Assembly (NCBI GenBank): GCA_003569165.1 | Contig: BGOI01000014.1 | Coordinates: 1 to 32,995, forward strand | Length of the DNA stretch: 32,995 nucleotides | From: Opitutia bacterium | GTDB taxonomy: Bacteria > Verrucomicrobiota > Verrucomicrobiia > Opitutales > UBA953 | Direction: 5' to 3' | Part shown: piece by piece, positions 6,001-32,995 of the stretch | Layout: each line of letters opens with the position of its first letter | Numbering within the stretch: the stretch's first letter is position 1 | The notes under the pieces: model-generated | What the model saw: only the letters and a program-made list of their open reading frames with translations | Told to the model about the DNA's origin: nothing | The model's database searches: none | Translations under genes and position numbers: made by a program

Positions 6001-9000
6001 TCAATGGCGGCGGGGCCACCACTGGCCTCAATGTCACCGGAACCTTCTCCACCAGTCGCGTCATCAACCTCAACGCCGCCGCGAACGGATTGGGCGTGCA
6101 GTTGGGCCAGACGCTCACCCTCGCGACCCCCTTCATCTTCTCGGCGCTGACGAATAACCTGACCAAGAACGGCTCCGGTAAACTCATCCTCTCCTCGGCC
6201 AACCCCGGTTGGACGGGCGGTCTGACCATCAACTCCGGCGTCGTCCGCCTCAATAACGCCCTCTCCGCGGGCACCGGCCCGATTTCGATCTCGCCGACCA
6301 CGAACGCCATCGGCACGGCCCTCCAGCTCGCTGGCGGCTTCGAGCTCACCAACGCCATCACCCTCCAGGGTAACGCGGGCCAGCTCCAGGGTGGCGTCAA
6401 CTTCGGCGGCCAGCTCCAGAGCGTCACCGGCGTAAACACCGTCTCCGGCCTTCTGACGTTGCCCTTCGACGCGGTCATCGGCGCCGATGCGGGTTCGACC
6501 CTCCGGATCTTCGGCGGCATCCTGAACGCCGGTCCCGCCAACAACGTGCTTCGACTCGTTGCCTCCGGTGACATCATCCTCGGTCAACTCGAGATGTCCG
6601 TCCCCGAGTCGTCCGCCATCCGATTCGGTCGGGTGGAGAAATTCGGCGCGGGCACCTTCCGGATCGCCGGCGCGAACGGCACTGAGGTCATCGACCAGGC
6701 CGGCACTGGGCTCGAGATCCGCCAGGGCACCGTGTTGGCCGATGGCAACGGCTCCTGGCGCTCCCGGGTTTTCCTGGACGTGGGCTCGACCCTTCGCCTC
6801 GACAACACGTCCGTCAACCTGGCCAACGGCCGTTTCAGCAATTCCCAGCAGAATAACTACAAGAACATCTCGTTCCGTGGCGGCAACCTGGACCTGATCG
6901 GTACCATCAACATCGCCGGTAATTCCACCGAGAATTTCGCCGACACCACGTTCCTCAAGGGCCTTTCCGTCGTCAGCCTCAAGGCGCAATCCAACTTGGC
7001 CGGCGCGGTCATCCTGACTTTCCGTGGCGCCGCCTGGGGAAATAACGCACCGGTGCAGACCGCCGCCGCTCCCGGCACCTCGATGCTCTTCCGCGGAGTC
7101 GGCATCGCGCCCGGCCCGGGTCGGGCCTCGATCAATTTCATCAACATTCCGACGCTTTCGGGCGAGAACGGCAACGCGCTAGCCTTGAACCGCGGTATCC
7201 TGCCGTGGGCCGTCGTCGACCTGAATTACTCGGGCGCCCATAACGCGAACCTTTCGTTCGCGACCCCTGGCGTCAACTCCGGCGTCAATTACCTCCGCTC
7301 GTTGGACATCGAGCGGGAGTATGAGATCAATCCGAGCCTCTTTGGCGGCACTGCCCAAGGCGTGACGACGAATTCGAACGTGCTGCTCACCGCGGCGAGC
7401 CCGGGTAACCTGGCTGTCGCGCTCAACACCCAACGCAACTCGCTCACCATCGAGGGCGGGGCCGGTCTGGCCATCGCCGATGGGGTGCAATTCAGCCTTC
7501 GCTCCGGCGGCATTCTCGTCCGCCCGGGCAGTATCTCCACCATCACCGGTGGCGTCATCAATCAGGTTGCCGCCAGCACCGCCGCCCTCCACGTCTGGGC
7601 TTTTGGTGACCTGACGATTTCCTCCGCCCTTGCCGGCGGCAACGGCGTCGGCAGCGGCAGCCCGTCGCTCATCAAGGCGGGGTCGGGCACGCTCACGATC
7701 AATCCTCCGACGTCGGCGGTCAACGGGCTCAACGGTCTGGGTGTGAACACCCTGAGCGGTCTCTTCATGCTCAACCAGGGCACCGTCAAGCTTGGCAGCC
7801 TCAACGCCATTCAGGCGAACAACTACTTCGCTGCCATCGGCGGCACCCTGGACCTCAACGGCAACTCCCAGCTCTTCTTCGGCAGCTTTACCGAGTCGAC
7901 GATTACCAACCAGGGCACCACGATCACCAGCACCAGCGGGCCCGGTCACCTGCTCATCAACGCCGACAACAGCGGACGCCAGTTCGCGGCCCGCCTGACC
8001 GGCAACGTCAGCCTGACCCGTTCCGGTCCGAACACCCTCAACCTCTGGGGTGTCAACAGCCACACCGGTTCCACGACCATCAACGGCGGCTTGACCGTGA
8101 TGTATGGCGACGCCGCCTTCACCGCCACCAGCGCGTTGAATATCAATTCCGCCAACCTCTACCTCGAGAATGCCAACAGCCTGACGGATAACCCGGATCG
8201 CATCAATGACGCGGCCGTGGTCAACCTGCGGGGCGGCCTGCTCGAGTTGCGCGGACGCCAGCAGTCGGCCAGCTCGGAGACCCTCGGTACCGTCAACCTC
8301 GTGGCCGGTGGTTCGCAGTTCATCGTCACCGCGGGCGATGGCTTCCAGGCCAGCTCGGTGCTCGCCATCAACAACCTCGTCCGCACCCCGGGCAGCGTCG
8401 TCAACTTCACCGCGGAATTGACCAACCGCATCACGCTCGGTGCCATCAATGGCGTCTCGACCACCGCTCCGGCCACGTTGACCAACGGCATCCTCGGCGG
8501 CTGGGCCGTCATGGGCACGCCTAACACGGGCACGCATCACTTCGCCTCCTACTCGCCCGTCTACGGCGTCGGTTCGATGGGCACCACGGGCTTCCCGGCT
8601 TACTCCAACGCCACGACCGACGCAGGCACCCTGCTGGCGGCGACGGCGACCTCGAACATCAGCCTCGACTCGGCCACTGCCTTCACGCACCCGGTCGCCA
8701 ACGACCTCACGCTCAACTCGCTGCGTTTCGCCAATCAGGCCACTCAGACCATCGCTCTCGCGGCTGGCAAGACCCTCACTGTGGGTACCGGTGGCCTGAT
8801 GTTCTTTAGCACCGCGCAACAGGTCCTCGGCGACGCCATCAATCAAGGTAGCCTCACTTCCGGCGGCGCCGAGCTCTTCGCCTACGCCCAAGGCGGAGCC
8901 TGGCACATCATCCGTACCAATATCGTCAACCCCTCCGCTGGCGTCGACATGGCCCTCGTCAAGAGCGGCCCCGGCACTTTCTGGATGGAAAACGCCAACA

Positions 9001-12000
9001 CCTATACCGGCGGTACCTTCATCAACAACGGCACCCTCGTGGTGACCCCAAATGGCGGTGGCGGCGTCATCCCGTTGGCGACGGATGTCACCAAGGGCTT
9101 GGTCGTCAACGGCTCATGGGCGAATGCTGGTCAGCTTCTGACTTATCGTAGCGGTGCCATCAATCCGGGTAACGAGGTCACCATTAATGACAACGGGTCC
9201 GTCATCCTCTCCGGTGATAACACCCTCCGCAAGGTGACGTTCAACAACCGCGGTTCCAACGGTACCGGTTACATCCGCACCTTCGCCAATAACCAAGTCA
9301 GCGGCGCCGGCTCCCGCGGCGTCCTGACGATCGGTGTCGGCGGACTTTTCGCCACGTCGGCTAACGTCACCACCACCTCCTTCATCGAAGGTCGTGTCGA
9401 CTTCGGCGCCTCCCCCAACTTCATCGATGTCGCCCCGGTCTCCGGCGGTGGATTCGCCAACGTCGACCCCTTCCGCCCAGCGTTCGCCCTCCAAGGTGTT
9501 GTCGGCTCGACCGGCGGCATCACCAAGACGGGCAACGGCGTGCTCGATTTCCGCGCCCAGAACGTCTTCACCAGCGAGTTCCTCGTCGCCGCCGGCGGTA
9601 TCCGCACGGGCGTCGCCAACGCCGGCTCCCGTTTCTCGACGCTGAACCTCGGCGGCGGCACGCGCCTCGACCTCAACAACCTCGCCACCACCTGGGGCGG
9701 GCTGACCGGCTCCGGCGACATCTTCAGCTCGTTCGGCACCCCGACCCTCAATGTGGGCTTCAACAACGCGGACACGACCTTCGCCGGTCGCTTCATGCGC
9801 TTCAACGACGCCGCCTTCGGCCAGATCAACAAGATCGGCACAGGCAAACTGACGTTGTCCTCGGTGCAGCCGACCACGGGCTCCTTCGGCGCCATCTCGG
9901 TCAGCGGCGGCACGCTCGCCTACGCTGGCGCTGGTCGGGCCTTCGTGTCCTCCGCCACGGCAAACTCGATCTTCAACGTCAATACCGGCGGCCTCCTCCA
10001 GCTCGACAACTCGGTCACCAATCTCAGCAACCGCCTCGGCACCGCCGCCGGCGGCACGGTCAACATGCAGGGCGGTCGCCTCCTCATCGGCGGTTCCGCC
10101 GCGGGTGCGACCACCGAAGGCATCGCGAACCTCTCCGCCCTCAACGGCGGCGGGCGCATCGAGCTCTCGGCCAACGCCGCGCAGGGTATGTCGCTCAATG
10201 TCACCACGCTGACCTACGCGAACGCCTCGCTCAGCGCCTCGACGACTCTCAACTCGACGAGGGTGACTGTCCCGAGCACCGTGGGCCTCATCCCGGGCAT
10301 GCTCGTCACGGGTGCCGGTATCAATGCCAACACGACGATTGCCAGCATCCTCGACGGTACGACGATCTTCCTGAGCGCCAACGCCACCGTCACCGGCGTG
10401 GCCACGCTCAATGCGGTTCAGACCAACGGCTCCCTCGTCATCGCTGGCCTCAGTGAGCTCACAGGCAACGGCCTGGCCAACCTCGCCATCACGAACGCTG
10501 GCTTCTCGGCGGGGCAGGGCGTCGGCGCCAATGCCAGCTTCACTAAGGCCGTCCGCGGCGATATCCTCGCCGATGCCTCCGCCACGGGCGTGGGCACGGG
10601 GTTCCTGACCATCGACAGCGTCACGGGCAACGGGCGGGCCCTCGACGCCACCACCGAGACGCGCATCCTGGCCAACACGCTGGGCGGCACGTTCAATGCC
10701 CGGCTTACCGGCGCGACCACCCTCACCGCGCCGACGACCGTCAATACCCTGACTACCAGCGGCACGGCCTCGGTCGTCTCGGGTCTCGCGTCGAGTGTCT
10801 TCGGCAAATACGGCCCCTCGGGCGAGCTGCTCTCGCTGACCCTCGCCAATGCCGCGGGCCTCCTCGTCAAGGATGGCACGACGACCTTCAACATGGGTAC
10901 GCTCGTCGGTCCTGCGACCGGCTCAGCCTACTTCCACGTCCTGCCGGGCGCCACGCTCGCCGTGAACGCCTCGCTGCTTCCGGCTGCGACGGGCGGTTTC
11001 GTCCTGGATAACGGTGGCACCATGGTGCTCGGTGAACGCACCGGGTTCTTCACCGGCACGGTCGCCATCAACAACGGGACGCTGCGCCTGAATTCTGGGC
11101 TGGATAACACGTTGGCCATCTCGGCCACGGCTGGCCCGATGGGCTTACCCTTCGTCACGCTCAACGGGACGGGCGCCGTCCTCGATCTTGGCGCGAAGAA
11201 CCAGACGGTCCGCGGCCTCTCCAGCTCGAACCCGCTGCCCGGCATGGGCGGCACGGTCACTGGCCTGACCGGCGCGGTCTTCACCACGACCGACAACAGC
11301 ACCTTCGGGGGCAGACTCACCGGCGGCCTCAGCTTCGTGCGCTCGGGCAACACCACGACCACGCTGACCTCGGCCAGCGATTACACCGGTGCGACCGTGG
11401 TCCGCGGCGGCACGCTCGAACTCCGTGACTCTGGTTCGCTCGCCAGCACGGCTGGCCTGCGTCTCGCGCAGGGTACGCTCCTCCTCAATAACTTCGGTCT
11501 CAACCCGGTTGACAGCCCGGTCCGGATCGCGGCGGCCAACGCCGTCACGCTTGCCGGCGGCACCTTGACCTTCATCGGGGGTGGCTCGGTCGACAATCTG
11601 CTGACCATTGATCGCATCAACATCGAGAGCGGGAGTGTCCAAATCAACTCCAACCCCTACATCAGCATGGGGGCGACCAACCAGATTAACATCGGCAACC
11701 TCGTTGTCGCCTCGGCGGGCGTGCGTCCGATGGTGAACTTCAATGGCTGGACCACGCTGAATAACGGCGGGATCAACACCCTTGGCGGCCAGGGCCTCAC
11801 CCAGAACTCCAACATCCTCCTCACGCAGCTCAACAGCGCTCCGTTTGGCACCGCCAGCCTTGTCAATGGGCTCATCGGTGGCTGGGCAGTCGCGGATGGT
11901 TCGACCTTCGCCACTTACAGCGCCACCTTCGGAGTCGTCGCCATGGGCCAGCAGTACGCCTTGGGCAACGGCTACCCCGCCACCAATTTCACCGGTTACG

Positions 12001-15000
12001 ACATCAACGCGACCGTCGTCACGGGTAATTACAATGATGGTGCGACGGTTCGCACCATCACGGGCCCCCATTCGGCCAACAGCTGGCGTCTTTCCGCCGG
12101 CGCCAACCAGGATTTCACGTTCGTCAACGCCCCGATCACCCTCGGCGTGGGTATCATCACGAACAACGGCAGCACGATCACCCTGCAGGGCGACACCTCA
12201 GTCAGCTCGCTCACCGCGGCGGGTTCGGACCTGTATGTCTACACGAACCAGGGCACGATGAACCTCAACATGACGCTCACCGGCGCCATGAACTTCGTGA
12301 AGTCTGGCGGCGGCACGCTGGCCCTCCGTACTCCCTCCAGCCCGGTCTCCAACGACTTCCTGGGCACGACTTTCGTCAATCAGGGCACTCTGAATCTCAA
12401 CGCGCCTCCCGGCGGCTACGTTCTGATCCCTGGGGACATCGTCGTGTCCGGCTGGGGCAGCGGCACCAACACCACGGTGGCCATGTTGAACAACCAGAGT
12501 CAGATCGCCGCGACCTCCAGCATCTCTCTGCTGGGCGGCGCCAACCTGAATCTCGTCGGGACCAACACCTTGAATGCCGTACTCTTCGACAACGAAGGGG
12601 GCATGTCCAACCCGACCCTGGCGACCGCCGTCAAGCTGACGCTGACCGCCGCCAACGCCGTCACAGCGACCAATCAGTCGCCCGTCTCCGTCCCAGTCAT
12701 CTCCGGGACTTCCCTCGAATTCAGCGCCACCCACCCCGTGCTCACCGTCCATGCCGGCTTGGCGGCCACGGGTCTCGTCATCAGCGCCCCAATTCTGCAG
12801 AGCGCTGGTATGCAGTCCTTGACCAAGCAGGGCACGGGCGTGCTGGCTATGAGTGGGGCGAGCACCTTCAATTCGTTCTTCAATCTCAACGCCGGCGCGT
12901 TGATGCTCGGCACTGATACCGTCCTCCTCCTCGGGGCCATCACCAGTGGCCCGGTCGGTCGCGGCGACCTGCGGGTCGGCGCGGGCACCTCGTTGCTCAG
13001 CGACGGCACGGTCCGTACGATCGCCAACCCGGTCACGGTGAACGGCGACTTCGCCTTCGGTGGCTCGGGCGCGGGTGCGGGCGTCATCCTGGCCGGCAAG
13101 GTCAGTCTTGGGGCGGCCATGCGCACCATCGGGGTCACGAACTACGGCGTCACGGCCACGCTCAACGGCGGACTGCTGACCGACCTCCTCGATCGCTCCA
13201 CGGCCTTGACCAAGACCGGCAATGGGGTCCTCCTGCTGGGCGTTCCCTCGACGCAGGCCGACCTCAAGGGGGCGGGCGTCACGGTGTCCGGCGGCGTCAT
13301 CCGCTGGGCGAACAACGACAGCCTTCCTCCGGACACGTTCCTCACGGCCGGCGTCGCCTCGGGCTTCGACCTGGCGGGCTTCAACCAGATCACCCACCGG
13401 ATCTTGGGCACGGGCTTCTTCACTAACTCCTCGACCCTCACCCCGAGCACCTTGACGGTCGGCGGCGACAACGCGTCATTCACCTTCAGCGGGGCCCTCA
13501 CGGACAACCTCGCCGGCGGTGGGCAGGCCCTCAACCTGACCAAGACGGGCTCGGGTGTTCTGGCCTTCGGCGCGGTGAATAATTACGCCGGTCTCACCGA
13601 CATCCGGGCCGGTCGTCTCGACATCACCAACATCGGTTCCTTCGGCCTCGGTCCGGTGAACATCGAGACTGGTGCAGAGCTCCGTATGGATCGCACGGGC
13701 ACCCTGAATTTCCCGAATGAATTGAGCGGGTCGGGCTTCGTGCGCTCCGTCGGCTCCGGCATCACCATCCTCACCGCCGCCAACTCTGGCTTCACGGGTC
13801 GTTTCCTCGTCGACAATGGTATCCTGCAGGTCGGCGATGGCACCCTAGCCGGTGACACCGGCGATCTCGGTAGCGCCAACAAGGTCGTTGTGACCACTCC
13901 CGGACAGTTGCGCTTTAACTACACCGTCGACTATCAGCTGTTCCGTCCCATCGAGGGCACGGGCGATGTCGTCCAGCAAAGCCGGATGACCTTGGACCTG
14001 GCGACCGCTAGCAGCGCCTTCAGCGGCAGGGCCGTTGTCAACAACGGCATCATGACGGCCTCGGCTGTCTCGGCGCTGGCCGCCTCGACGGGTATCGTGG
14101 TCAACCTCGGCACATATTATGATACCATCAGCAGCACTTATCTCCCGGGCAGCTTCTTCAAGGTCATCGGCAATGATTCAGTGGGCACCGTTTCCTACGG
14201 CGTCCCGCTCACGCTCAATGGCGGTACCGCCGACGCGTTGACTCAGACCGCTTACCTCGGAGCGATCACGCTCAACGGCGGCGAGTTGACCAGCGACTTG
14301 GTGTCCCCGGCCGTCTCTGGTTCCTGGGTCTTCCTGGGTAATGTCACCGCGTCGGCTGATTCCACAATCTCCGCGGAGAACATCAACGTGGGTCTCACCA
14401 GCGCCTCGCGCGACTTCAACGTCGCCACGGGTAAGGTGCTGACCTTCTCGGGTTCCTACGCCGACGCGGTTCCGGTTACGGGTACCTCGAGCCTCTCGAA
14501 GTCTGGCGCGGGCACGCTCGTCCTGAGCGGCTCCGCCAAGACCTACACGGGCACGAACACGGTGACGGGTGGCTTCCTGAAGTTCGCCGACGCGGCCCAG
14601 CTGGGCGCCTCGTCCGCCTCGGTCCACGCGAATCTTATCTTCAACGGCGGCGCAATCGAGTTCACCGGCGGCGGCTTCGGCCGTAAGTTCCTCGTCAAGG
14701 ACGGCGGTGCGGGCTTCCACGCCACCAGCGCTGTGAACCCGCTGCTCGTCAACGGTGCCGACCAGATCGACTTCGATGACACCGTGCCGGCCACGGCGAC
14801 CAGTCGTCCGCTGACGCTCTCGGGTACGAGCATCTTGGATAATACCTTCAGCGCTGGCCTCTTGCAGGGTGGCGATGCGGCCCAGGCCTTCTCCTCCATC
14901 GTGAAGAACGGCGTCGGCCAGTGGATCATCGACGGCTTGGGCAGCACGCTCGCCCCGAATGCCGAAGTGAACGTCAACGGAGGCCTCCTCGGCTTCTACT

Positions 15001-15999
15001 TGAACGCTCTCGGCGGACCCAGCAGCACGGGCAACGTCAACCTGGCCAACAGCTCGACTCTTCGCTGGGAAGTGACCAATAACCAGGACCTCGGCTCTCG
15101 CCTCAAGGTCGCTGACGGTGCGACGGCGACGATCAAGTTCGATAACACCACGAGCGCGACGACCTTCACCGGCGGCATGTCTTCGGCACCGGCGCTCTCG
15201 TCAAGTCCGGCGCGGGCGACCTCATCCTCGCGGCCGCCAATACCTTCTCGGGCGGCCTCACGGTCGCGCAGGGCAAGGTCACCGTGAACGACACCGGCGC
15301 CCTCGGCACCGGGCCGCCACGGTCGGCAATGCTGGCACGATGGTCATCAACCAGTCCGTCGCGAATAACATCAACGTCAACGGTAACGGCACCATCGGCG
15401 GCACGCTCGTGGCGCCGGTCGCGCTCGGTAACGTCTCCGTGGGCGACCACGGCACGGTCGCGCGCGGCGTCTCGATCGGCAACTTCTCGGCGAGCAGCCT
15501 GACCCTCGCGGGCGGCGCCCGTCTCGAGTTCAAGATCTGGGACATCACCAAGGCGGCCGGCACCGGCTACGACCAGTATGTCTTCAACAACCTCGACCTC
15601 AGCGGCGCCTCGGCGTCCAACAAGGTCGTGATCAAGCTGGTCTCCCTCACCGACGGCACGAACCTCGGCGCGGCTGGTGACCTCTCGCTGATTTGGGGTG
15701 CGGCCGGTATCCAGAAGTTCTCGTTCGGTTCGTTCAATACGGCCGGCCTTAACCTCGGCACTAGCAACCAGGGCGTAAATATCACCGACCTGTTCACCTT
15801 CGATACCAGCCAGTTCACCTACACCGGTGGCACGGCCTCTCATGCGAGCCTCTGGTCAATCGACTTCAACACCGCCAACGGCGCCATCACGCTGACCGCA
15901 GTTCCGGAGCCCTCGACCTACGGTATCGGTCTCGGTGCGCTGGCCCTTGCGGCTGCCGCCATCCGCCGTCGCAAGCGACTGCAGCAAAAGAAGGCCTGA
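1..15999 (+). CDS. Giant PEP-CTERM autotransporter-repeat surface protein, 5' end outside window, frameshifted
   Basis: About 5,330 codons are visible and the start lies upstream. The product is almost wholly Gly/Thr/Ser/Asn/Ala-rich beta-strand repeats of the autotransporter-associated (PATR, PF12951) type, with cores such as LTKxGxGTLxLSGxNTYTG and GTLxVG recurring more than 20 times. It ends in AVPEPSTYGIGLGALALA, a hydrophobic stretch and a basic IRRRKR tail, which is a classic PEP-CTERM sorting signal, so it is expected to be exported and processed by an exosortase. No beta-barrel translocator is present. The reading frame must change near 105, 522, 1590, 3790, 15178 and 15313, and each change fits the loss of one base; repeat homology continues smoothly across every break. 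I read it as one intact gene with consensus errors. An adhesin or matrix role is inferred from the family; no enzymatic domain is seen. Confidence 0.85.
3190..4035 (+). repeat. Tandem repeat of about 410 nt inside the giant gene
   Basis: Two neighbouring blocks encode nearly the same series of motifs: a GAxxLTLSGA/NTF-type strand, then ALG-TTxGGTLVA, GAALEL, VTGTGxGxTGALRNLSG, NSFxG, and QSDAGTLxLxGT. The TGALRNLSG core appears near 3410 and again near 3823. The second copy carries the frameshift near 3790, and comparison with the first copy shows which frame is right. This is a recent internal duplication compared with the more diverged PATR copies elsewhere. Confidence 0.65.
8161..8760 (+). 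repeat. GGWAV-type module, copy 1, inside the giant gene
   Basis: This section encodes a non-PATR-looking module: a run containing NLRGGLLELRG, then a VNF-containing linker, then NGILGGWAV followed by FASYSPVYGVGSM and an aromatic/Thr-rich stretch. A second, diverged copy lies at 11485-12140 with NGLIGGWAV and FATYSATFGVVAM at the matching place. The pair suggests duplication of a block about 3.3 kb long. Confidence 0.6.
10240..10405 (+). other. Distinct beta module within the giant gene (VTVPSTVGLIPGM type)
   Basis: The frame encodes TRVTVPSTVGLIPGM, then VTGAGI, NTTIASI and IFLSANATVTG. This pattern (a VxVxSTxGLxxGMxVxGxGI core followed by TTIxSI and LSxNAT) is one I know from scattered bacterial surface and phage structural proteins. 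It differs from the PATR repeats around it. Its function is not known to me. Confidence 0.45.
11485..12140 (+). repeat. GGWAV-type module, copy 2, inside the giant gene
   Basis: This matches the module at 8161-8760: an AGGTLTFIGG strand, a VNFNGW-like linker, then NGLIGGWAV and FATYSATFGVVAM. It is clearly diverged, so the duplication is old. Confidence 0.6.
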
Positions 16000-16284: not shown

Positions 16285-17337
16285 ATGCGCTCACCCCTAC
16301 CGCTTATCCTTTCCCTGTTGCTGCTCGGATTCGCCCCATGCGCACAGGCGGCCCGTGACCTGACCTTTTACCTCATCTCGGACGTGCACGTGGGGATGGA
16401 TTACCGCAAGACTGCCCCGCCGTTTGGCGCGGACGCTTTCAATGCCCACGTCGCGCAGACGCTCGAGGTGCTCGCCAAAGTCCCCGGCACGCCGTGGCCC
16501 ACCGAGGGCCCGGTCGCTGAGGCGATGAAAGGGAAGGGCCCCGTCCCTCGTCCCCTCGGCATGATCGTCGCGGGCGACCTTACCGAGGTCGGTAATGCGA
16601 AGCAGTGGCAGGATTTCGACCGGATGCTGCCTTGGCAGGGTTCGACGCCCGCAAAGTATCCGACCTTCGCCCTGGCGGGTAATCATGACGGCGGTACCAC
16701 CAGCCCGGTCCGCTTAGGCCTGCGCGAACGTAATCGCGGCATGCTCGCCGCCGGTCTCGTCACGAAGCTTTCCGCCGATGCGCTCCACGCCGCCTGGACC
16801 TGGCAGGGCGTGCACTTCATCAACGTCAACCTGTATCCCGGCGACGGCGTCAAGGCAGGCGCCAAGGCGGGCTCGATGTGGGATCCGGAGAGCAGCCTGA
16901 GCTTCCTGAAGGCGCGGCTGGCCGAGATCGGCGCGACCGAACCGGTCGTGATCGCGATGCACCTCGACTTTAGCGCCCGCAGCACCTGGTGGGACCAGCC
17001 CAAGCGCAAGGCGTTCTACGAAGCCATCCGCGGGCATAACATCATCGCCCTCCTGCACGGCCATACGCACGACATCACCCGACTCACTTTCCCCGAAGAT
17101 AAGGATTACGCCGACTTCGGCGGCCAAGGACCCCGCTTCGATTGCTTCTCGGCCGGCGCCTTCAAGCCCGACGCCAAGGAAGGTAAGCCGTATCCCGGCC
17201 CGCGCTATCCCTGTGAGTGCTATGTGTTCCGTATCGTCGACGATGTTCTCGTCGCCGCCCATTACACCGCCGAACCCGGTGGCTGGAATACCAGTAAGCA
17301 CGCCCCGCAGCTGACGTTTGTGAAGAAGATTAAGTGA
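16285..17337 (+). CDS. Secreted calcineurin-like metallophosphoesterase
   Basis: The 350-residue product has a Sec signal peptide (hydrophobic residues 6-20, cleavage likely after AQA at 20-22). All metal-binding motifs of the calcineurin-like phosphoesterase fold follow in order: D33-x-H35 in SDVHVG, GD98 in AGDLTE, GNHD at 132-135, H226 in AMHLDF, and GHTH at 259-262 in LLHGHTHD. It should bind two divalent metals and hydrolyse phosphate esters outside the cytoplasm; the substrate cannot be told from sequence. The start is the only one that gives a signal peptide; no Shine-Dalgarno sequence precedes it. It stands alone between the giant gene's terminator and a repeat-filled convergent spacer. 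Frame and motifs are intact. Confidence 0.9.
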   Translation: MRSPLPLILSLLLLGFAPCAQAARDLTFYLISDVHVGMDYRKTAPPFGADAFNAHVAQTLEVLAKVPGTPWPTEGPVAEAMKGKGPVPRPLGMIVAGDLTEVGNAKQWQDFDRMLPWQGSTPAKYPTFALAGNHDGGTTSPVRLGLRERNRGMLAAGLVTKLSADALHAAWTWQGVHFINVNLYPGDGVKAGAKAGSMWDPESSLSFLKARLAEIGATEPVVIAMHLDFSARSTWWDQPKRKAFYEAIRGHNIIALLHGHTHDITRLTFPEDKDYADFGGQGPRFDCFSAGAFKPDAKEGKPYPGPRYPCECYVFRIVDDVLVAAHYTAEPGGWNTSKHAPQLTFVKKIK

Positions 17338-17562: not shown

Positions 17563-17667
17563 AGGACAGCACGTGGTGCTGTCCCTACCTAGATGCAGGC
17601 TATGTCGTGACGCGGGCCCGACCCTACCCGCGGCAAACTAGGGCAGCACGCGGTGCTGCCCCTACCC
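17563..17667 (-). repeat. Three phased GGTAGGG hairpin arms (elements D)
   Basis: Read on the minus strand, GGTAGGG boxes end at 17666, 17628 and 17589, and the end of element C continues the series at 17545, giving spacings of 38, 39 and 44 nt. Perfect stems follow: GGGCAGCAC/GTGCTGCCC (17641-17661), a CGGGCCCG palindrome near 17613-17620, and GGACAGCAC/GTGCTGTCC (17564-17584). The first and last differ by one compensated base pair. Confidence 0.6.
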
Positions 17668-17733: not shown

Positions 17734-20352
17734 TCACTTCCCGCTCCGCCACACTTTCTTGTCCGGCGTGACGAGCATGACGTCGAGCTTCTCGCGCTGG
17801 GCGATGCGCTTGGCTTCTTCGAACCCGACGGCCATCAGGGAGGTCGACCAACCGTCAGCCTGGAAGCAGCTCTCGTGAGTCACGACGACCATCTCGAGCG
17901 TAGGTTCGACGGGCCGTCCGGTCTTGGGCGAGAGGATGTGCGAGACGGGCTTGCCGGCAGCGAGTCGTTTGGCGCGGTAAAGGCCGGAGGTGCTCAGCGC
18001 CCGGTCGGTCAGCAGCACGGTCTGCAGCATGACCCGGGGATTGAAAGGGTCTTCGATGCCCACGCGCCACGAGCCCGCGGCGAGGATCTCGCCGCCGACC
18101 TCGATGAGGAACTCGTGTTGACCCTGCGCACGCAGGATCTTGGCGGCGCGGTCGGCCGCCAGGCCTTGCAGCACGGACCCGAGGTCGAGGTGCAGGCCTT
18201 CATGGCTCTTGGAGAGGGTAAGGTTCTCCTTGTCGAGTTTGAGCTTCGACCAGCCCACCTTCGCAAGCGCGGCCTGGAGTTGCGCCGGCGTGGGATCGGG
18301 CAGTTTGCCCGCCGGGCCGTAGCCCCAGAGACTCGTCAGCGGCGCGATGGTGATGTCGTACATCCCGCCGGAGGCGGCGCTCAACTTCAGCGCGAACTCG
18401 ACGGTATCGGCGAGCTCCTGGGTGATGCCAAAGGCTTGGGTGGACTCAAGGCGGTTGAAGTCGGTCGTCGCGGAGGATTCGCGCCAATGCGAGAGCGAGA
18501 ACTCGACGCGATTGATCTCGGCCTCGAGCTCACGCTTGAGGATCTGGGCGTCGACGTCACTGCCGCGCACCTTGACGGTCCAAGTCGTGCCAAACGCGGC
18601 GCCGTGCAGTTCGGTGACGGCTTGCCGCGCCGAGGCCTCGGGGGTTTCTTCCGCGGCGAAGTCCGCGCGGGGGAAGAAGGCCACCACGGAGCCCAGCGCC
18701 AAGACGACGGCCGCCCACGTGTCGCGACGTCCCCAGGTCTCGGCTTGGTTGGCGGAGCGCACGAACTTGAAGAGGGCGCCGGTCGGGCAGCCATATTTGC
18801 AATAAGCCTGCGGCACGACGACCGAGGCGAGCAGGCCGACCACGGCTAAGGTCAGGGGAATCGCGACCCCGATCCCGAGAATCCAGGCGTCGAAGGGCTC
18901 GACATGTCCGATATTCCAGCGGGGCCAAACCAGGGCGGCCAAAAAGGCCCCGGCGAGGGCGATGGCAGGCAGTTTGCTCAGCCAAGCATGCCAACGGGCG
19001 GGGACGGCCAGATGGAGGCGCTTAAGGCCTCCTAGGAGCTCCTGGGCTGCCCCGTGAGGGCAGATCTGATGGCAATAAGCCTGGCGGCGAGACCCCCAAG
19101 GGACGAGGAGGGCGATGCCTCCGAGGATCAGCAGGGCGGGGGCTTGGGACCACGGGATACCATGGCGGGCCCAGCCAGCGAAGAGGGAGAGCGAAAGCAG
19201 TTGGCCGAGCCAGAGGCCGAGGCCACCAACGAGGAGAATCTGCCAGACTGTCCTCACCACGGGTCGGCCGTGCAGGGGCGTGAAGGTCATCAGGAGCGCA
19301 CCGACAAGGAAGCACCAAAGCGCCGCGGTGCGGAGGCGTTGCTGGGCGTCCTGCTTGGAGCGATGGCCGCCGTGCGCGTCATCGGCGAAGCGCGTCTGTA
19401 ATCCCTTGGCGATCCCGTAACTCGTGAGCGTCGCGCCGGAGACCGTGTCGAGCTCGCCTTTCCGGAAGTCGAACTCCGCCCACTCGCGGGTAGTCCACTT
19501 CGTCAGGTCCTTGAAGAAGGTGCGCCCCTGCGGGTCGGGTTCCTGCTCCTGGATGCGGCTGACGTATTCCGCGGTGTCGTAGGTCGTGCGCAGTTTGACT
19601 TGGCGCAGGCGGAGGCCGTCGACTTCGATGGCGATCAGCGTCTCGCTCGGGCCAGCGTAGCCGACGACTTCGTCGGCGGAAGGCGAGGAACGCACGACGT
19701 AGCCGAGGTGGGCGCGGTTGGGCCCGCGCACGAGGTTCCAGCCTAGGCGCGGGATGTTCGGCTCGAAGCTGGTCGCATCGGGGAAGCCGGAGCCTTGGAT
19801 TTCCTTGAGTGAGAGCGCGGTCGGAAAACGCAGCGAGACGTAATTGCCGGAGAGACGTTTTTGGATGGATTCGGTAATCGCGTAGGCGGTGAGCGTGGAG
19901 CCGGCGTAGGCCTCGAGCTTCGGGGTGGGTTGCGTCGTGGGGCGCCAGTCCTTGAAGGCTTTCTCGAACGCGGCATTGCCACGCAAGGTATCCACGTGCT
20001 CTGGCGTGTCTTCGCTCGAGAGGATACGGGTGCCGACGATCTTCTCCTGGTTGTCGAGCGCCACGAGCACGTTGCTCGGGCCGGCGTAGCCCAGGATGCT
20101 GTCGGCGTCGGGCGAGGTCGTGACCAGGCGCCCGAGGCGGTTACCAGACTCGTCTTGGACGAGGAGTGTCTGATTAGGGCCGGACTTCAGCCGCTTGGCA
20201 CCGGGGAAGAACGCCTTGGCGTCATCGAGCCCCAGACGCGTCAGCGCGGACTCCGTGAGGGGAGTCGTGCGCTGCAAGAGCAGGGCGGCGAGGAGCAAAG
20301 CCGCGAGACGCCAGCCTTTGACCAGCCAGGCGCTGACGCGGGGTGACGGCAT
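17734..20352 (-). CDS. Membrane flavoprotein fusion: two FMN-binding domains, NosR-like CxxxCP core, ApbE flavin transferase
   Basis: The 872-residue product has an N-terminal membrane anchor (14-27), then two FMN-binding domains. The second has the canonical flavinylation motif SGATLT (305-310, acceptor T308); the first has a variant, AGSTLT (150-155, T153). Six more hydrophobic segments (about 341-358, 370-392, 404-420, 460-476, 490-513, 545-560) carry two CxxxCP motifs of the NosR/NapH polyferredoxin family (C427/C431 and C518/C522). Residues 580-872 form a complete ApbE domain: FGTTW, MYDITIAPLTSLWGYGP, DLGSVLQGLAADRA, TSGLYR, HILSPKTGRP, FQADGWSTSL. Topology counting places the FMN and ApbE domains outside the cytoplasm and the cysteine motifs near the inner face. 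ApbE attaches FMN from FAD to Thr, so this protein may flavinylate itself. The C-terminal ferredoxin domain of true NosR is absent. It starts 3 nt after the upstream oxidoreductase gene, so the two are probably co-transcribed. Confidence 0.88.
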   Translation of the reverse strand: MPSPRVSAWLVKGWRLAALLLAALLLQRTTPLTESALTRLGLDDAKAFFPGAKRLKSGPNQTLLVQDESGNRLGRLVTTSPDADSILGYAGPSNVLVALDNQEKIVGTRILSSEDTPEHVDTLRGNAAFEKAFKDWRPTTQPTPKLEAYAGSTLTAYAITESIQKRLSGNYVSLRFPTALSLKEIQGSGFPDATSFEPNIPRLGWNLVRGPNRAHLGYVVRSSPSADEVVGYAGPSETLIAIEVDGLRLRQVKLRTTYDTAEYVSRIQEQEPDPQGRTFFKDLTKWTTREWAEFDFRKGELDTVSGATLTSYGIAKGLQTRFADDAHGGHRSKQDAQQRLRTAALWCFLVGALLMTFTPLHGRPVVRTVWQILLVGGLGLWLGQLLSLSLFAGWARHGIPWSQAPALLILGGIALLVPWGSRRQAYCHQICPHGAAQELLGGLKRLHLAVPARWHAWLSKLPAIALAGAFLAALVWPRWNIGHVEPFDAWILGIGVAIPLTLAVVGLLASVVVPQAYCKYGCPTGALFKFVRSANQAETWGRRDTWAAVVLALGSVVAFFPRADFAAEETPEASARQAVTELHGAAFGTTWTVKVRGSDVDAQILKRELEAEINRVEFSLSHWRESSATTDFNRLESTQAFGITQELADTVEFALKLSAASGGMYDITIAPLTSLWGYGPAGKLPDPTPAQLQAALAKVGWSKLKLDKENLTLSKSHEGLHLDLGSVLQGLAADRAAKILRAQGQHEFLIEVGGEILAAGSWRVGIEDPFNPRVMLQTVLLTDRALSTSGLYRAKRLAAGKPVSHILSPKTGRPVEPTLEMVVVTHESCFQADGWSTSLMAVGFEEAKRIAQREKLDVMLVTPDKKVWRSGK

Positions 20353-20355
20353 CCG

Positions 20356-22728
20356 TTAGTCGGCGAGCATCAGCTGGAAGGCGTCGGCGTGGACGTTGCC
20401 CTTGGCGCCGTCGGCCGAGAGAACGATCGTGTGCGTGCCAGCGGCGAATTGGAACTTTCCAAGTTTGTTGGCCTGCTCGATTTCGCCGACCTTCTGATTG
20501 AGGCGTAAGGTGACGGGCTTTTCGCCGTTACGATTAATCGTTAGCAAGGAGTTGCCCGAGCGGTTCTCGTGCCCTTGCCAGTAGCCACGGAGCTCATACT
20601 TGCCGGCGTCCTTGACCTCGAAGGTGTAGGTCGCCCGATTGCCGTTGCCGGAGGCGTAGTGATAGCCGGCGCCGAGGTGCGCGATTCCGTGTCCTTGGGT
20701 CCACTTGCCTTCGAGCTTCGCCTGAGCGTCGTCGACGACGATGCCGCCGAGCTTGGCCAGTTCCTGGAGGTCGTCAGGGGAGAGTTTGGTGGGCGTGCCT
20801 TTGGTGAGGTCGAGGTTCATCCGGCCGGTGGGCAGTTCCTTGAAGTCCGCAATCGACGTATCGAGGAAGAGGTCTGCGCGCAGGTCGCTGCGGCGCATCC
20901 GGCCGGGCTGTTCCATGAGCTTGATGAGGTCGGGCAGATGCTTCTGGTAGACGCCGCGTGGGTCGGTGTTTTCGCGGACAGCGAGGTAGGCGGCCTTGCC
21001 GACGACTTCGCCCATCATGCCGATGGTGCGCATGACGCGGACGGTACCGAGGGCTTCGTGGGTGACCGAGATATGGCGGCCGGCGAAGAACAGGTTGTTG
21101 ATGTTCTTCGAGTAGAAAAGGCGGTAGGGCAGCGGGTAGCCGTTGCGGCGATCGACGGCGTGGACCTGCTTGCCGCTGGCGTCGGTGTAGCCGAACGCGG
21201 CGCGAGAGATGAACGGATTGTCGGGGAACTTCTTGGCGTACTGTTCCTTGGCGTAGTGGAGGTCGATGTCCCAGGTGGTGGGCACGCAGCCGTCATCGAA
21301 GTCGCGGCGGGTGATGATGTCTTCCTTGTTCAGGATGATGTCGCCGTCAAAGAGGCGGGATTCGCGGGGGCCGCCGACGTGCGAGGCCCACTTGAGGTCG
21401 GAGTGGGCGTACTTAGCCTTGTCGGGGCCGTTCTTGAGGGCGGAGAAGGCGCCATACATCGCGCGGAAGTTCCAGTCGCGGATATATTCGAGGTCCTTGA
21501 TTGGATCCTTGTCGAAGCCGGATTCCCAGAACCACTCGGCCTTCATGAAGGGCTTGTCGTCGATCTTGGCCTTGGATTTTTGGAGGAGAGGGAAGTCGCC
21601 CATCTCGAGCGGCAGCGCCCACGGGGTGGCGGGCCAGCTTGAGGCTTGGTCGGCGTCTTGGTAGAACCACATGTTGGACATCCCCATGCGTTTGTCGGGC
21701 TCGGTGCGGAAGGTCGCGCCGGCGTAGGCGCCCACCCAGCCGTGGCCGGTGGTGTCGGCCACGAACTTGGCGCGGAAGACCTTCTCGCGGCCGGTCTTGA
21801 CGTCGATGGCCTTCACGGCGGCGATACGGTTGCCATCCATGATCACTCCGGTGGCGAAGTGCCCCAGGAAGAGGGCGATATTCTTTTCGTTGCGTACGAC
21901 CTTTTCCTTGAGGTCATCGCCAAAGCTGTCGACGCGGCCGGGGCTGTCGGGTGAGCGGTCACCGATTTCTTCGATCATCTCGCCGAGGTGCGGGAACTTG
22001 CCGCGGGTGGTGCCACCCATGGCCCAGACGCCGATTTCGGAGCTGCCGTTACCGCCGAGGACGAAGCGGTCCTGAATGAAGGCGACCTTGAGCGACTGAC
22101 GAGAGGCGGAGAGCGCCGCGCCGAGGCCACCGTAACCGCCGCCGACGACGACGAGGTCGAACTCACCTTGGTCTTCCGAGCCCTTGGGGCTGTTCCACTT
22201 CGAGCGGGCGGCGACGAGCGCTTCGCCTTCGGGCGGGGTGAAAGAAGCGTCCTTGCTGAAGAGGATGGCGTCGGCGCGACCGGCGAAACCGGTGAGGTCA
22301 TGGAGGGCAATCTTCACGTCGCCCGCGGGCAGGGCGACCTTGCCGCCAGCTTGCCAATGCCACTCGGCGCCCTTCGTGCCGAACTCAGCGGCGACGGGCT
22401 GTCCGTTGACGATCAACTGGAAGCGGCCGGGGGTGCCGGGGGCGTTCCAGTGGGCGACCCAATCCTTGGTGCGCACCCAGACTCGGTATTCGCCCGCGGA
22501 GGCGATACGGACCGAGCCCGTGGCATCAGCGACCGGCTTACCGAGACCGTGGGCCAGGAGGTAAGGCGAGCCGACGATGTTCGTGAAAGAGGTGTCGAGC
22601 TTCCAGCCGCCTTGAGACGCGAGGGATTCGGCTTCGACGAAGACCGTATCGGTGGACTGGGCGCGGCCGACGACGGCAGCCAGCAGGGACAGTCCAAGGA
22701 AGGGGAGGACGCGAGGGGACATGGACAT
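20356..22728 (-). CDS. Secreted FAD-dependent oxidoreductase with N- and C-terminal carbohydrate-binding-like domains
   Basis: From the start MSMSPR the product is 790 residues with a Sec signal peptide (hydrophobic 7-21, cut near GRAQS). Residues 25-160 form a beta domain (VEAESLASQGGW opening, YRVWVRTKDW) like those on polysaccharide-active proteins. Residues 190-620 are a FAD_oxidored (PF12831) domain: DLVVVGGGYGGLGAALSASR dinucleotide fold, the LGGNGSSEIG signature, and the FAGRHISVTHEALGTVR and MRTIGMMGEVVG motifs near its end. Residues from about 660 form a golvesin/xanthan-lyase-like beta domain (YTFEVKDAGKYELRGYW). The substrate is unknown; a sugar or glycan is a guess from the flanking domains. 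The open frame extends upstream to 23322, but that part runs through spacer repeats and would bury the signal peptide, so it is not used. A second in-frame ATG lies at 22722. It is followed after 3 nt by the FMN/NosR/ApbE fusion gene. Confidence 0.87.
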   Translation of the reverse strand: MSMSPRVLPFLGLSLLAAVVGRAQSTDTVFVEAESLASQGGWKLDTSFTNIVGSPYLLAHGLGKPVADATGSVRIASAGEYRVWVRTKDWVAHWNAPGTPGRFQLIVNGQPVAAEFGTKGAEWHWQAGGKVALPAGDVKIALHDLTGFAGRADAILFSKDASFTPPEGEALVAARSKWNSPKGSEDQGEFDLVVVGGGYGGLGAALSASRQSLKVAFIQDRFVLGGNGSSEIGVWAMGGTTRGKFPHLGEMIEEIGDRSPDSPGRVDSFGDDLKEKVVRNEKNIALFLGHFATGVIMDGNRIAAVKAIDVKTGREKVFRAKFVADTTGHGWVGAYAGATFRTEPDKRMGMSNMWFYQDADQASSWPATPWALPLEMGDFPLLQKSKAKIDDKPFMKAEWFWESGFDKDPIKDLEYIRDWNFRAMYGAFSALKNGPDKAKYAHSDLKWASHVGGPRESRLFDGDIILNKEDIITRRDFDDGCVPTTWDIDLHYAKEQYAKKFPDNPFISRAAFGYTDASGKQVHAVDRRNGYPLPYRLFYSKNINNLFFAGRHISVTHEALGTVRVMRTIGMMGEVVGKAAYLAVRENTDPRGVYQKHLPDLIKLMEQPGRMRRSDLRADLFLDTSIADFKELPTGRMNLDLTKGTPTKLSPDDLQELAKLGGIVVDDAQAKLEGKWTQGHGIAHLGAGYHYASGNGNRATYTFEVKDAGKYELRGYWQGHENRSGNSLLTINRNGEKPVTLRLNQKVGEIEQANKLGKFQFAAGTHTIVLSADGAKGNVHADAFQLMLAD

Positions 22729-22976: not shown

Positions 22977-23092
22977 GGTAGGGGCGCCACTGCGTGGCGT
23001 CCGTGGGCGGACGGACGCTGGAAGGGTCAAAGAGTCTGCCCGTGGTCATCACGTGCCTCTGCGAACGGACGCGACGCAGTCGCGCCCCTACC
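22977..23092. repeat. GGTAGGG-anchored hairpin element A
   Basis: This 116-bp element has perfect 11-bp terminal inverted repeats, GGTAGGGGCGC and GCGCCCCTACC. Next to each end is a hairpin: CGCCAC-TGC-GTGGCG (22985-22999) on the left and CGCGAC-GCA-GTCGCG (23070-23084) on the right. The arms are identical over about 28 bases, apart from two positions that pair with each other. The centre shares GTCCGTGGG, GGACGGA, TGCCC, CACGTGCC and CTGCGAACGG with element B at 26009-26127. Confidence 0.75.
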
Positions 23093-23149
23093 TTCGGCTC
23101 CCCCTTAGTTCTTCCCATGGCCGAGAACCTTGGCTTCATACGATGCATC

Positions 23150-23950
23150 ATGAAGTTCAGCCTACTCCTCTCATTATCTTTGATCAGCCTCGCCGCCGTC
23201 GAAATTCCGTCCACCGGCTTAATGGTCGATCTCGACGCATCGAAGGGAGTCACGGTGGATGCCCAAGGACGAGTCACCGCGTGGCAGAGCCAGTCCGGTC
23301 CAATCGCGGCCCGTGATTTCATCGGCCAGCCGAAGGGGCGCGCTGACGCTACCTCCGGCCTGCCAACGCCCGTGAAGGGTTCGCCCGCGGCGCTGTCTTT
23401 CCGTCAGCAGGAACTGGTCTGTCATGATGAGGCGGCTTTCGACGGACTGATCCGCGGCGACGGTTGCACCTGGGTCACGGTGTTGAAGGTCTATCCGCAA
23501 CGCGTCGGTCTAAAAGACGTCAACTCATTCTTCGGTAACCTGCGCAACGGCCAGAAGTACGAAGGCCTCTGGGGCTGCCTCGACGACGACAACACCGTCT
23601 GGTGGGGCGCACGTAATGGGCTCACCTTCGGGCGCTTCGACGTGAATAATCCCAAGCTCGTCGGACCGAAGCTGGAGGAAGGACGTTTCCATTTCCTCGC
23701 CGGTCGCCTCGGCGCAGGGCCGGGCGAGGTGCTCGCCGAATTCTTCGTCAATGATCTCAAGGCCTGCGTGTCCGCGCGCTTTCCGATTAACCCTCAGGCC
23801 GATGCGTCTAAACTCGCCATCGGACAGGAACGCGACGCGATCCAGCACCCCGGTAAAGAATCTTTCGATGGCGAAGTCGCGCGCTTCCTCCTTTGGAACC
23901 GTCCGCTGACTGATGCCGAGTTGAAGACGGTGTTTGAGAAGGTCAGGTAA
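23150..23950 (+). CDS. Secreted LamG/concanavalin-like domain protein
   Basis: The 266-residue product starts at MKFSLLLSLSLISLAAVE, a clear Sec signal peptide. An in-frame ATG at 23117 would add 11 residues and spoil the signal. The mature part opens GLMVDLDASKGVTVD with AWQSQSG and closes with FDGEVARFLLWNRPLTDAEL, which is the usual pattern of the Laminin_G_3/concanavalin-like fold. Such domains bind carbohydrate or other ligands; no catalytic motif is visible. It is transcribed away from the FAD oxidoreductase operon and ends in a spacer with inverted 12-nt arrays. Ligand and partner are unknown. Confidence 0.75.
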   Translation: MKFSLLLSLSLISLAAVEIPSTGLMVDLDASKGVTVDAQGRVTAWQSQSGPIAARDFIGQPKGRADATSGLPTPVKGSPAALSFRQQELVCHDEAAFDGLIRGDGCTWVTVLKVYPQRVGLKDVNSFFGNLRNGQKYEGLWGCLDDDNTVWWGARNGLTFGRFDVNNPKLVGPKLEEGRFHFLAGRLGAGPGEVLAEFFVNDLKACVSARFPINPQADASKLAIGQERDAIQHPGKESFDGEVARFLLWNRPLTDAELKTVFEKVR

Positions 23951-31510: not shown

Positions 31511-31658
31511 GGCTTGGTCTGACCCTGCCGATTTGCGGCCCCCCATCAAGGTCTACCTAGTAGTTCCCGCATAAGGGGGATAAGCGGTGGTGGATTCTTG
31601 CCGGGGTGGTCGAGGCTTCGTTGACCAGTCCCGTTGGCTCAGATTGAGTGTCGTCACC
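31511..31658. promoter_or_regulatory. Divergent spacer upstream of hemF
   Basis: This gap separates the YugP-like gene (-) from hemF (+). TTGACC at 31621-31626 lies 17 bases before TTGAGT at 31644-31649, a weak candidate promoter with a very short leader to the ATG at 31659. No Shine-Dalgarno sequence precedes hemF. Confidence 0.25.

Positions 31659-32995
<1,337 letters not shown>

Follow-up and report, generated by a model that had tools for sequence, protein, structure and literature searches.

A conserved gene pair for a candidate extracytoplasmic flavin electron route in Verrucomicrobiota: a putatively secreted PF12831 oxidoreductase beside a NapH-like membrane protein fused to its own ApbE

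In a contig from an Opitutia bacterium of the Verrucomicrobiota (BGOI01000014.1, assembly GCA_003569165.1), two genes of the (-) strand stand 3 nucleotides (nt) apart, the first encoding a putatively exported flavin adenine dinucleotide (FAD) oxidoreductase of family PF12831 and the second a membrane protein combining two flavin mononucleotide (FMN)-binding domains, a NapH-like core and its own flavin transferase ApbE. The window, i.e. the whole stretch of DNA analysed, is this entire 32,995-base contig. As many related bacteria keep both genes side by side, the pair is probably an undescribed electron route and, on balance, we lean towards considering it as the unit of an extracytoplasmic redox chain, where the enzyme would oxidise an organic substrate outside the cytoplasm and the electrons would travel via the FMNs to quinone.

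In an order-level sample of 177 genomes, strong matches to the fusion (>260 bits) and to the enzyme (E<1e-160), by cut-offs chosen after viewing the lists, occurred in the same 11 genomes, the window's own included (hypergeometric 1e-17), and the genes were adjacent in 11/11 genomes carrying both. A phylum-level sample of 387 genomes was queried with the first 545 amino acids (aa) of the fusion; 27 genomes matched at E<=1e-15, among which 19 exceeded 160 bits, and an enzyme homologue was present in 19/19 of the latter. Enzyme homologues being found in 95 genomes at E<=1e-55 and in 24 at E<=1e-170, this co-occurrence corresponds to p=5.9e-13 against the 95 and, with a cut-off chosen after viewing the data, to p=5.5e-28 against the 24. 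These genomes share descent and no p-value given here amounts to an independent test. The eight genomes left out of the 19 scored 57-79 bits, with no match ahead of residue 219; an enzyme homologue occurs in two of them (G434, G493), bringing the full count to 21/27. Within the 19, the matches of G310 and G491 begin no earlier than residue 282, in proteins 421 aa long with one FMN domain. Regarding linkage, the genes are directly adjacent in eight of the 19 genomes, close in two, with a sugar transporter between them in G384 and one gene in G491, and on different contigs in nine. The initial annotation had named beforehand a lack of conserved neighbourhood in relatives as grounds for giving up the proposed electron-transfer pair; with these figures of adjacency and co-occurrence, the proposal survives that test.

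The closest named relatives are contigs of uncultured Opitutae and other Verrucomicrobiota, with membrane parts up to 98% identical among the best 80 of 321 named loci, for which fusion and adjacency were called by script. The ApbE domain is fused in 48 of these 80 loci, where the enzyme lies directly upstream in 34, the contig leaves no room in five and, among the nine remaining, L222 and L223 were found adjacent by eye. The 32 loci called not fused, L194 being so counted only because its contig ends there, comprise six adjacent pairs (seven with L251, by eye), two without room and, by script, 24 that are not directly adjacent (23 if L251 is taken out). The 3-nt gap is preserved in 33/80 named loci, which include many close relatives, and three pairs come from Planctomycetota (L222, L254, L258). 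Besides, the divergences of the two proteins correlate over 35 pairs, nine of them unlinked (Spearman 0.72, with 0/2000 permutations as high), a correlation that can also be obtained from shared species history. At the family level, FMN_bind matches are confined to the fusion in 7/7 pair-bearing genomes tested, and none was found in 4/4 tested genomes devoid of the pair. Chance does not account for the two genes being neighbours.

The features of the two genes, where domains and motifs, like adjacency and co-occurrence, are read from sequence, are as follows:

20356..22728, (-) strand: FAD oxidoreductase gene, first of the pair, 790 aa; open reading frame (ORF) with its ATG at 22728, carrying PF12831 and Golvesin_C
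22657..22728, (-) strand: predicted Sec signal peptide, residues 1-24, MSMSPRVLPFLGLSLLAAVVGRAQ; hydrophobic stretch of 11 residues (mean 2.62) ahead of the domain
22255..22647, (-) strand: N-terminal beta-sandwich, residues 28-158, possibly carbohydrate-binding-like; AlphaFold2 model, blocks mostly at 83-96 pLDDT (predicted local distance difference test)
20935..22158, (-) strand: FAD_oxidored core (PF12831), Pfam match
20371..20739, (-) strand: C-terminal Golvesin_C domain PF25275, 62.7 bits against a cut-off of 31.6
17734..20352, (-) strand: fusion gene, 872 aa, with transmembrane helix 1, two FMN_bind domains, NapH-like membrane core and ApbE; from ORF, Pfam and hydropathy
19852..20091, (-) strand: FMN_bind domain 1, 37.3 bits, acceptor candidate Thr153 (codon 19894-19896)
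19396..19662, (-) strand: FMN_bind domain 2, 30.6 bits, acceptor candidate Thr308 (codon 19429-19431) in DTVSGAT
18658..19329, (-) strand: NapH-like membrane region, helices 2-7; Fer4_5 PF12801 at 43.5 bits (cut-off 22) and hydropathy
19057..19074, (-) strand: CxxxCP motif 1 (C427, C431), predicted on the cytoplasmic side; both Cys in 100/100 sequences
18784..18801, (-) strand: CxxxCP motif 2 (C518, C522), predicted on the cytoplasmic side; both Cys in 99/100, with one gap
17776..18594, (-) strand: ApbE flavin transferase domain PF02424, predicted outside, 232.7 bits against a cut-off of 25.6

The enzyme matches FAD_oxidored PF12831 with 186.4 bits against a curated cut-off of 27, over profile positions 1-412 of 416, and holds the Rossmann motif GGGYGG at residue 196. 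Its N-terminus has the look of a Sec signal peptide, as read by eye rather than called by a signal-peptide program. It also scores 24.2 bits against PF00890, over the cut-off of 20.4, but across 37 of 414 positions, namely the Rossmann motif, which does not place it in that family. In Foldseek, the top matches are SdhA/FrdA, with the Shewanella flavocytochrome c within the first 20, at TM-scores of 0.2-0.3, so that the fold search on the model informs on the superfamily level and not on chemistry. That the enzyme would itself be flavinylated was considered and rejected, as it contains no [ST]G[AS][ST] motif. The flanking domains had been described as glycan-binding-like in the initial annotation, a description for which the present support consists of the Golvesin_C match and of a single CBM35-containing chain at Foldseek rank 49; a sequence search in the PDB with the N-terminal beta-sandwich domain returned nothing usable.

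Regarding the fusion, FMN_bind is matched in two stretches with 58.3 bits against a cut-off of 22, and seven helices are delineated from hydropathy peaks merged by eye (approximately residues 8-26, 342-360, 370-390, 399-417, 457-475, 491-509 and 547-565). In this topology, the predicted position of the FMN domains, like that of ApbE, is outside, and the two CxxxCP loops face the opposite side. The T308 site (DTVSGAT) exactly fits the published motif Dxx[S/T]GA[S/T], whereas the T153 site (EAYAGST) deviates from it at the D, S/T and A positions while conserving T or S. In the ApbE domain, S789, H805 and D833 align with the catalytic residues of the Vibrio cholerae ApbE (6nxi), named Ser241-His257-Asp285 in PMC12052999. 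In the structure model, the ApbE part resembles experimentally determined ApbE folds (TMt ~0.85) and the front domain shows a weak structural match to RnfG/NqrC. The protein has six Cys in total and no CxxCxxC motif. Clearly, much of the initial annotation of this pair holds: the 3-nt spacing (enzyme stop ending at 20356, fusion ATG at 20352, with the fusion downstream), the probable export of the PF12831 enzyme, the seven helices with two FMN-binding domains and an own ApbE, and the predicted location of FMN and ApbE domains on the same outer side. The CxxxCP core it mentioned is present with two such motifs instead of one, and its NosR label is loose, since the CxxCxxC ferredoxin motif is missing and the NCBIfam NosR score (28.2 bits) is far under the equivalog cut-off of 1000; NapH/PceC-like proteins are nearer.

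The residues expected to matter are well conserved in an alignment of 100 different membrane proteins, many of them closely related, with the ApbE residues scored in the 50 fused ones. Acceptor site 1 (T153) is T in 92 and S in three, with five gaps, and acceptor site 2 (T308) is T in 94 and S in six; T or S is thus kept at both sites in 95/95 sequences with letters at both. The four CxxxCP cysteines are kept in 100, 100, 99 and 99 sequences, and S789, H805 and D833 in 49, 49 and 47 of the fused proteins. Two FMN domains occur in 94/99 relatives, the other five being two whole 421-aa one-domain proteins and three that are cut or split. In other lineages, ApbE is encoded by a separate neighbour or not seen at the locus, hence the fusion of ApbE is not essential to the system. 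Of note, the window genome (G000) holds a second, stand-alone ApbE (contig 19, 9088-9819; L042), the fusion being its only protein with FMN_bind matches.

The partner is not the same throughout the enzyme family, as seen in a FastTree phylogeny of 132 rows, in which the phylum loci cover 89/95 genomes (six with weaker or broken-up matches being excluded) and 11 rows are named loci added for carrying the membrane protein. All 27 NapH-linked rows (16 from the samples and the 11 added named rows, one of these about 4 kb from its partner) fall within one 38-row clade; of the other 11 rows there, 10 come from genomes with a NapH-like gene elsewhere, and the last, L059, is truncated at the end of its contig, with no NapH-like match in its genome. 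Another 12 rows lie near a DUF4405-like module or ApbE, 11 of which form one clade with L058 apart, L056 belonging to this group solely through its ApbE neighbour. The alternative partner is a protein of 308-372 residues with a DUF4405-like start and a rear domain with DxxSGAT, a motif present in 9/12 of these proteins (two with variants, one without), while two His are kept in 12/12; one of them scores 14.5 bits against DUF2271, under the cut-off of 27.3. Such a combination beside a PF12831 enzyme can be seen in L054 (9452-10495) and similarly in L055, L057, L060, L061, L062, L151, L160 and L166, and it is possibly an undescribed flavinylated cytochrome fusion. A twin-arginine-like motif starts 10/12 enzymes of this group and is absent from the window's enzyme. 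With export called by a hydrophobicity rule of our own and modules counted within three genes, a flavinylation module lies near 27/86 exported, 0/23 cytosolic and 1/12 ambiguous enzymes among all 121, of which 15 loci were chosen from the order sample partly for their partner. For the 106 phylum enzymes taken regardless of partner, the figures are 14/71, 0/23 and 1/12, and the exported and cytosolic proportions differ with p=0.019 (Fisher, relatedness ignored).

Taken at face value, the proposed chain would start with the secreted PF12831 enzyme, whose FAD would oxidise an organic substrate outside the cytoplasm. Electrons would then pass from this FAD to two covalent FMNs that the membrane protein would carry in its periplasmic domains, and the NapH-like CxxxCP core would hand them to the quinone pool, from where they would reach the haem-copper oxidase of the genome. 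Also on the periplasmic side, the C-terminal ApbE domain would attach the FMNs at T308 and T153 from exported FAD, the fusion thereby flavinylating itself or sister molecules. ApbE moves FMN from FAD onto Thr or Ser (PMC12052999), and PceC, which among characterised proteins stands closest to the membrane part, bears a covalent FMN on an outward domain (PMC5928378); from this chemistry and this precedent, we infer self-flavinylation, the covalent FMNs and an FAD-FMN-CxxxCP-quinone path, with quinone as the membrane carrier. The ligand of the CxxxCP motifs is left open in the PceC paper (PMC5928378). As for the passage of electrons between membrane and enzyme claimed in the initial annotation, adjacency, co-occurrence, conserved sites and the change of partner support a transfer between the two predicted proteins outside the cytoplasm, while the action on a sugar or glycan that it added is not established, the neighbouring genes being suggestive only.

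Provided that the pair is real, oxidation is the probable direction and reduction a rather unlikely one; oxidation and, as substrate, a sugar or glycan are favoured but faintly indicated. The two COX1 (haem-copper oxidase) matches of the window genome favour oxidation, and so does a relative (L091) in which a Sugar_tr transporter separates the two genes, an arrangement that counts for glycan oxidation. No NqrB/RnfD match was found in the window genome. Its 41 sulfatase match stretches, some being pieces of one gene, and 22 PF06439 matches in 2.03 Mb make up a strong degrader profile, which likewise speaks for oxidation. An excess of sulfatases near partnered enzymes (7/28 vs 7/93, p=0.018) was dropped as evidence, these loci having been partly picked for their partner. 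More broadly, it may be, though we hold this tentatively and with more doubt than belief, that secreted PF12831 dehydrogenases of Verrucomicrobiota and Planctomycetota took up two unrelated flavinylated modules, the double-FMN NapH-like protein, in many cases fused to ApbE, and the DUF4405 cytochrome with its flavin-acceptor domain, and respire extracytoplasmic sugars or sulfated glycans independently of cytochrome c or NAD.

Several observations weigh against an oxidative chain shared by the two proteins and have to be set beside its rivals. The chain could run in reverse, from quinol through the membrane protein and its FMNs to a secreted enzyme reducing an organic compound, as in flavinylated fumarate or urocanate reductases. 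The nearest solved folds, SdhA/FrdA and flavocytochrome c, together with PceC and NosR, where the same module is placed in reductase systems (PMC5928378, PMC8238504), make reduction possible, but the fold match is weak and generic for the superfamily, the genome has haem-copper oxidase matches, and 172 genomes of the survey have a NapH-like module clustered with an ethanol oxidase (PMC8238504), showing that such modules serve oxidases too; this reversal is regarded as somewhat unlikely. Alternatively, the genes could be co-inherited neighbours with separate functions, the membrane protein supplying some other periplasmic partner or reducing iron, and the enzyme discharging to another carrier or to oxygen. 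The nine phylum genomes with the genes on different contigs speak for it, as do the 57/71 exported homologues of the unselected loci lacking any recognised flavinylation module nearby. Also weighing against the shared chain, neither a 17-row, mostly exported sister clade of the NapH-linked one nor a 47-row part of the tree, in which 21 rows are apparently cytosolic, has a module close by. Yet genomes with unlinked genes still hold both, the short intergenic gap recurs, if often among close relatives, the pair exists in Planctomycetota, and the enzyme of another clade adjoins a different flavinylation module; independence of the two proteins appears quite improbable.

A special case of the oxidative chain would have the exported enzyme make keto-sugars, PF06439 hydrolases acting downstream of it as in the 3-keto-glycoside pathway. 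In line with it, three lineages have PF06439 genes in the vicinity of the pair (L255, L088, L050) and two of these also Gfo/Idh/MocA genes (L088, L050), L222 has a xylose-isomerase-like gene upstream, and PF06439 is abundant in the window genome. However, each of 23 genomes has 8-34 PF06439 matches, from which one or two such neighbours would be expected in some 17 loci, by a rough estimate; for the neighbours scanned, which are not all of them, PF06439 proximity is without demonstrated excess over chance and was dropped as evidence on the substrate, and this route is deemed unlikely. To our knowledge, the known 3-dehydrogenases belong to families other than PF12831. Neither is a carbohydrate-active family recognised beside the pair in the window, bar one Laminin_G_3 match under its cut-off, and in unselected loci sulfatases are near 2/15 partnered vs 6/91 other enzymes (p=0.32), a disappearance of the excess that lowers the odds of glycan oxidation.

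By the features considered, known here from sequence, the pair belongs to, and presumably works like, the NapH-like flavinylated systems (Meheust et al., 2021; PMC8238504), with which it has in common the PF12801 core, an N-terminal extracytosolic FMN domain (by hydropathy topology) and an ApbE in the cluster, here in the same protein, beside oxidoreductases that vary between systems. It differs in having two FMN_bind domains, a fused ApbE and a PF12831 partner enzyme. Neither PF12831 nor FAD-dependent occurs in the main text of this survey, whose supplement may tabulate the association. PceC/RdhC (Buttet et al., 2018; PMC5928378) likewise has an outside FMN domain between helices 1 and 2 and two CX3CP motifs, and its FMN is proven to be covalent at Thr168; it differs by six helices, one FMN domain, a separate flavin transferase and a reductive dehalogenase as partner, for which no match was found among the 18 window ORFs scanned. 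With respect to the RdhC/PceC motif [S/T]G[A/S]TX[S/T], site 2 (SGATLT) fits and site 1 (AGSTLT) deviates at the first position. NosR shares FMN_bind and a CxxxCP membrane core, but membership was rejected on the score and missing motif given above.

Flavinylated fumarate reductase-like enzymes (PF00890) also involve an extracytosolic FAD enzyme supplied via covalent FMN, with the FMN domain often inside the enzyme, whereas here it lies in the membrane protein and the enzyme is of PF12831. ApbE fused to its substrate, as in the trypanosomatid fumarate reductase or ApbE-DUF2271 (PMC12052999, PMC8238504), similarly unites transferase and target in one chain, with a different target and membrane topology; an ApbE-NapH-like fusion is not mentioned in the available portions of these two papers. 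The DUF4405 cytochromes (Huang et al., 2024; PMC10979944) resemble the segment starting the alternative partner, but lack, in what is available of that paper, the flavin-acceptor domain to which it is joined here. PF12831 does appear in one paper of the literature searched, on a Brucella flavoproteome. The pairing is not described in the titles and abstract beginnings of the literature searched, subscription papers and supplements lying outside that scope. New here are the family to which the partner enzyme belongs, the combination of two FMN domains with a fused ApbE, and the change of module between clades.

In its genomic setting, on a draft genome of 2.03 Mb that is 86.6% complete in 37 contigs, the pair stands alone, as the upstream neighbour is divergent, a lectin-like Laminin_G_3 ORF (22994-23950, (+); 27.3 bits against a cut-off of 27.6), and the downstream one convergent, a phosphoesterase gene (16285-17337, (+)). 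In the relative L043, an ORF with a Laminin_G_3 match occupies the same place, with homologues in L044-L046. One further feature lies 3' of the fusion gene:

17563..17585, (-) strand: terminator-like hairpin

This hairpin is weak evidence, since five such sites were found against 4.2 expected in shuffles, and a promoter scan found none. Elsewhere in the window, four consecutive ORFs (3-15287, (+)), one of 3798 aa, carry passenger-associated-transport repeats (PATR) and form an autotransporter-like surface protein block. A coproporphyrinogen III oxidase match extends over two overlapping ORFs (31587-32782, (+)), for which a frameshift, an error or a real split are all possible, and corresponds to one 318-aa ORF in the same cluster of L043. 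Some loci carrying these Verrucomicrobiota genes are labelled Akkermansia muciniphila (L198, L218, L243, L250, L251), a label apparently wrong for L198.

According to the survey of flavinylated systems (PMC8238504), it is still unknown what most NapH-like systems catalyse. With the present pair, one of them gains a specific enzyme partner. This assignment draws on adjacency, on co-occurrence that extends to unlinked genes and on the different module found in another clade, and can thereby be tested directly. Besides, the self-contained fusion offers a compact object for studying the action of ApbE on a target within its own polypeptide. Should the enzyme oxidise glycans, the pair would constitute a respiratory entry point for polysaccharide degraders.

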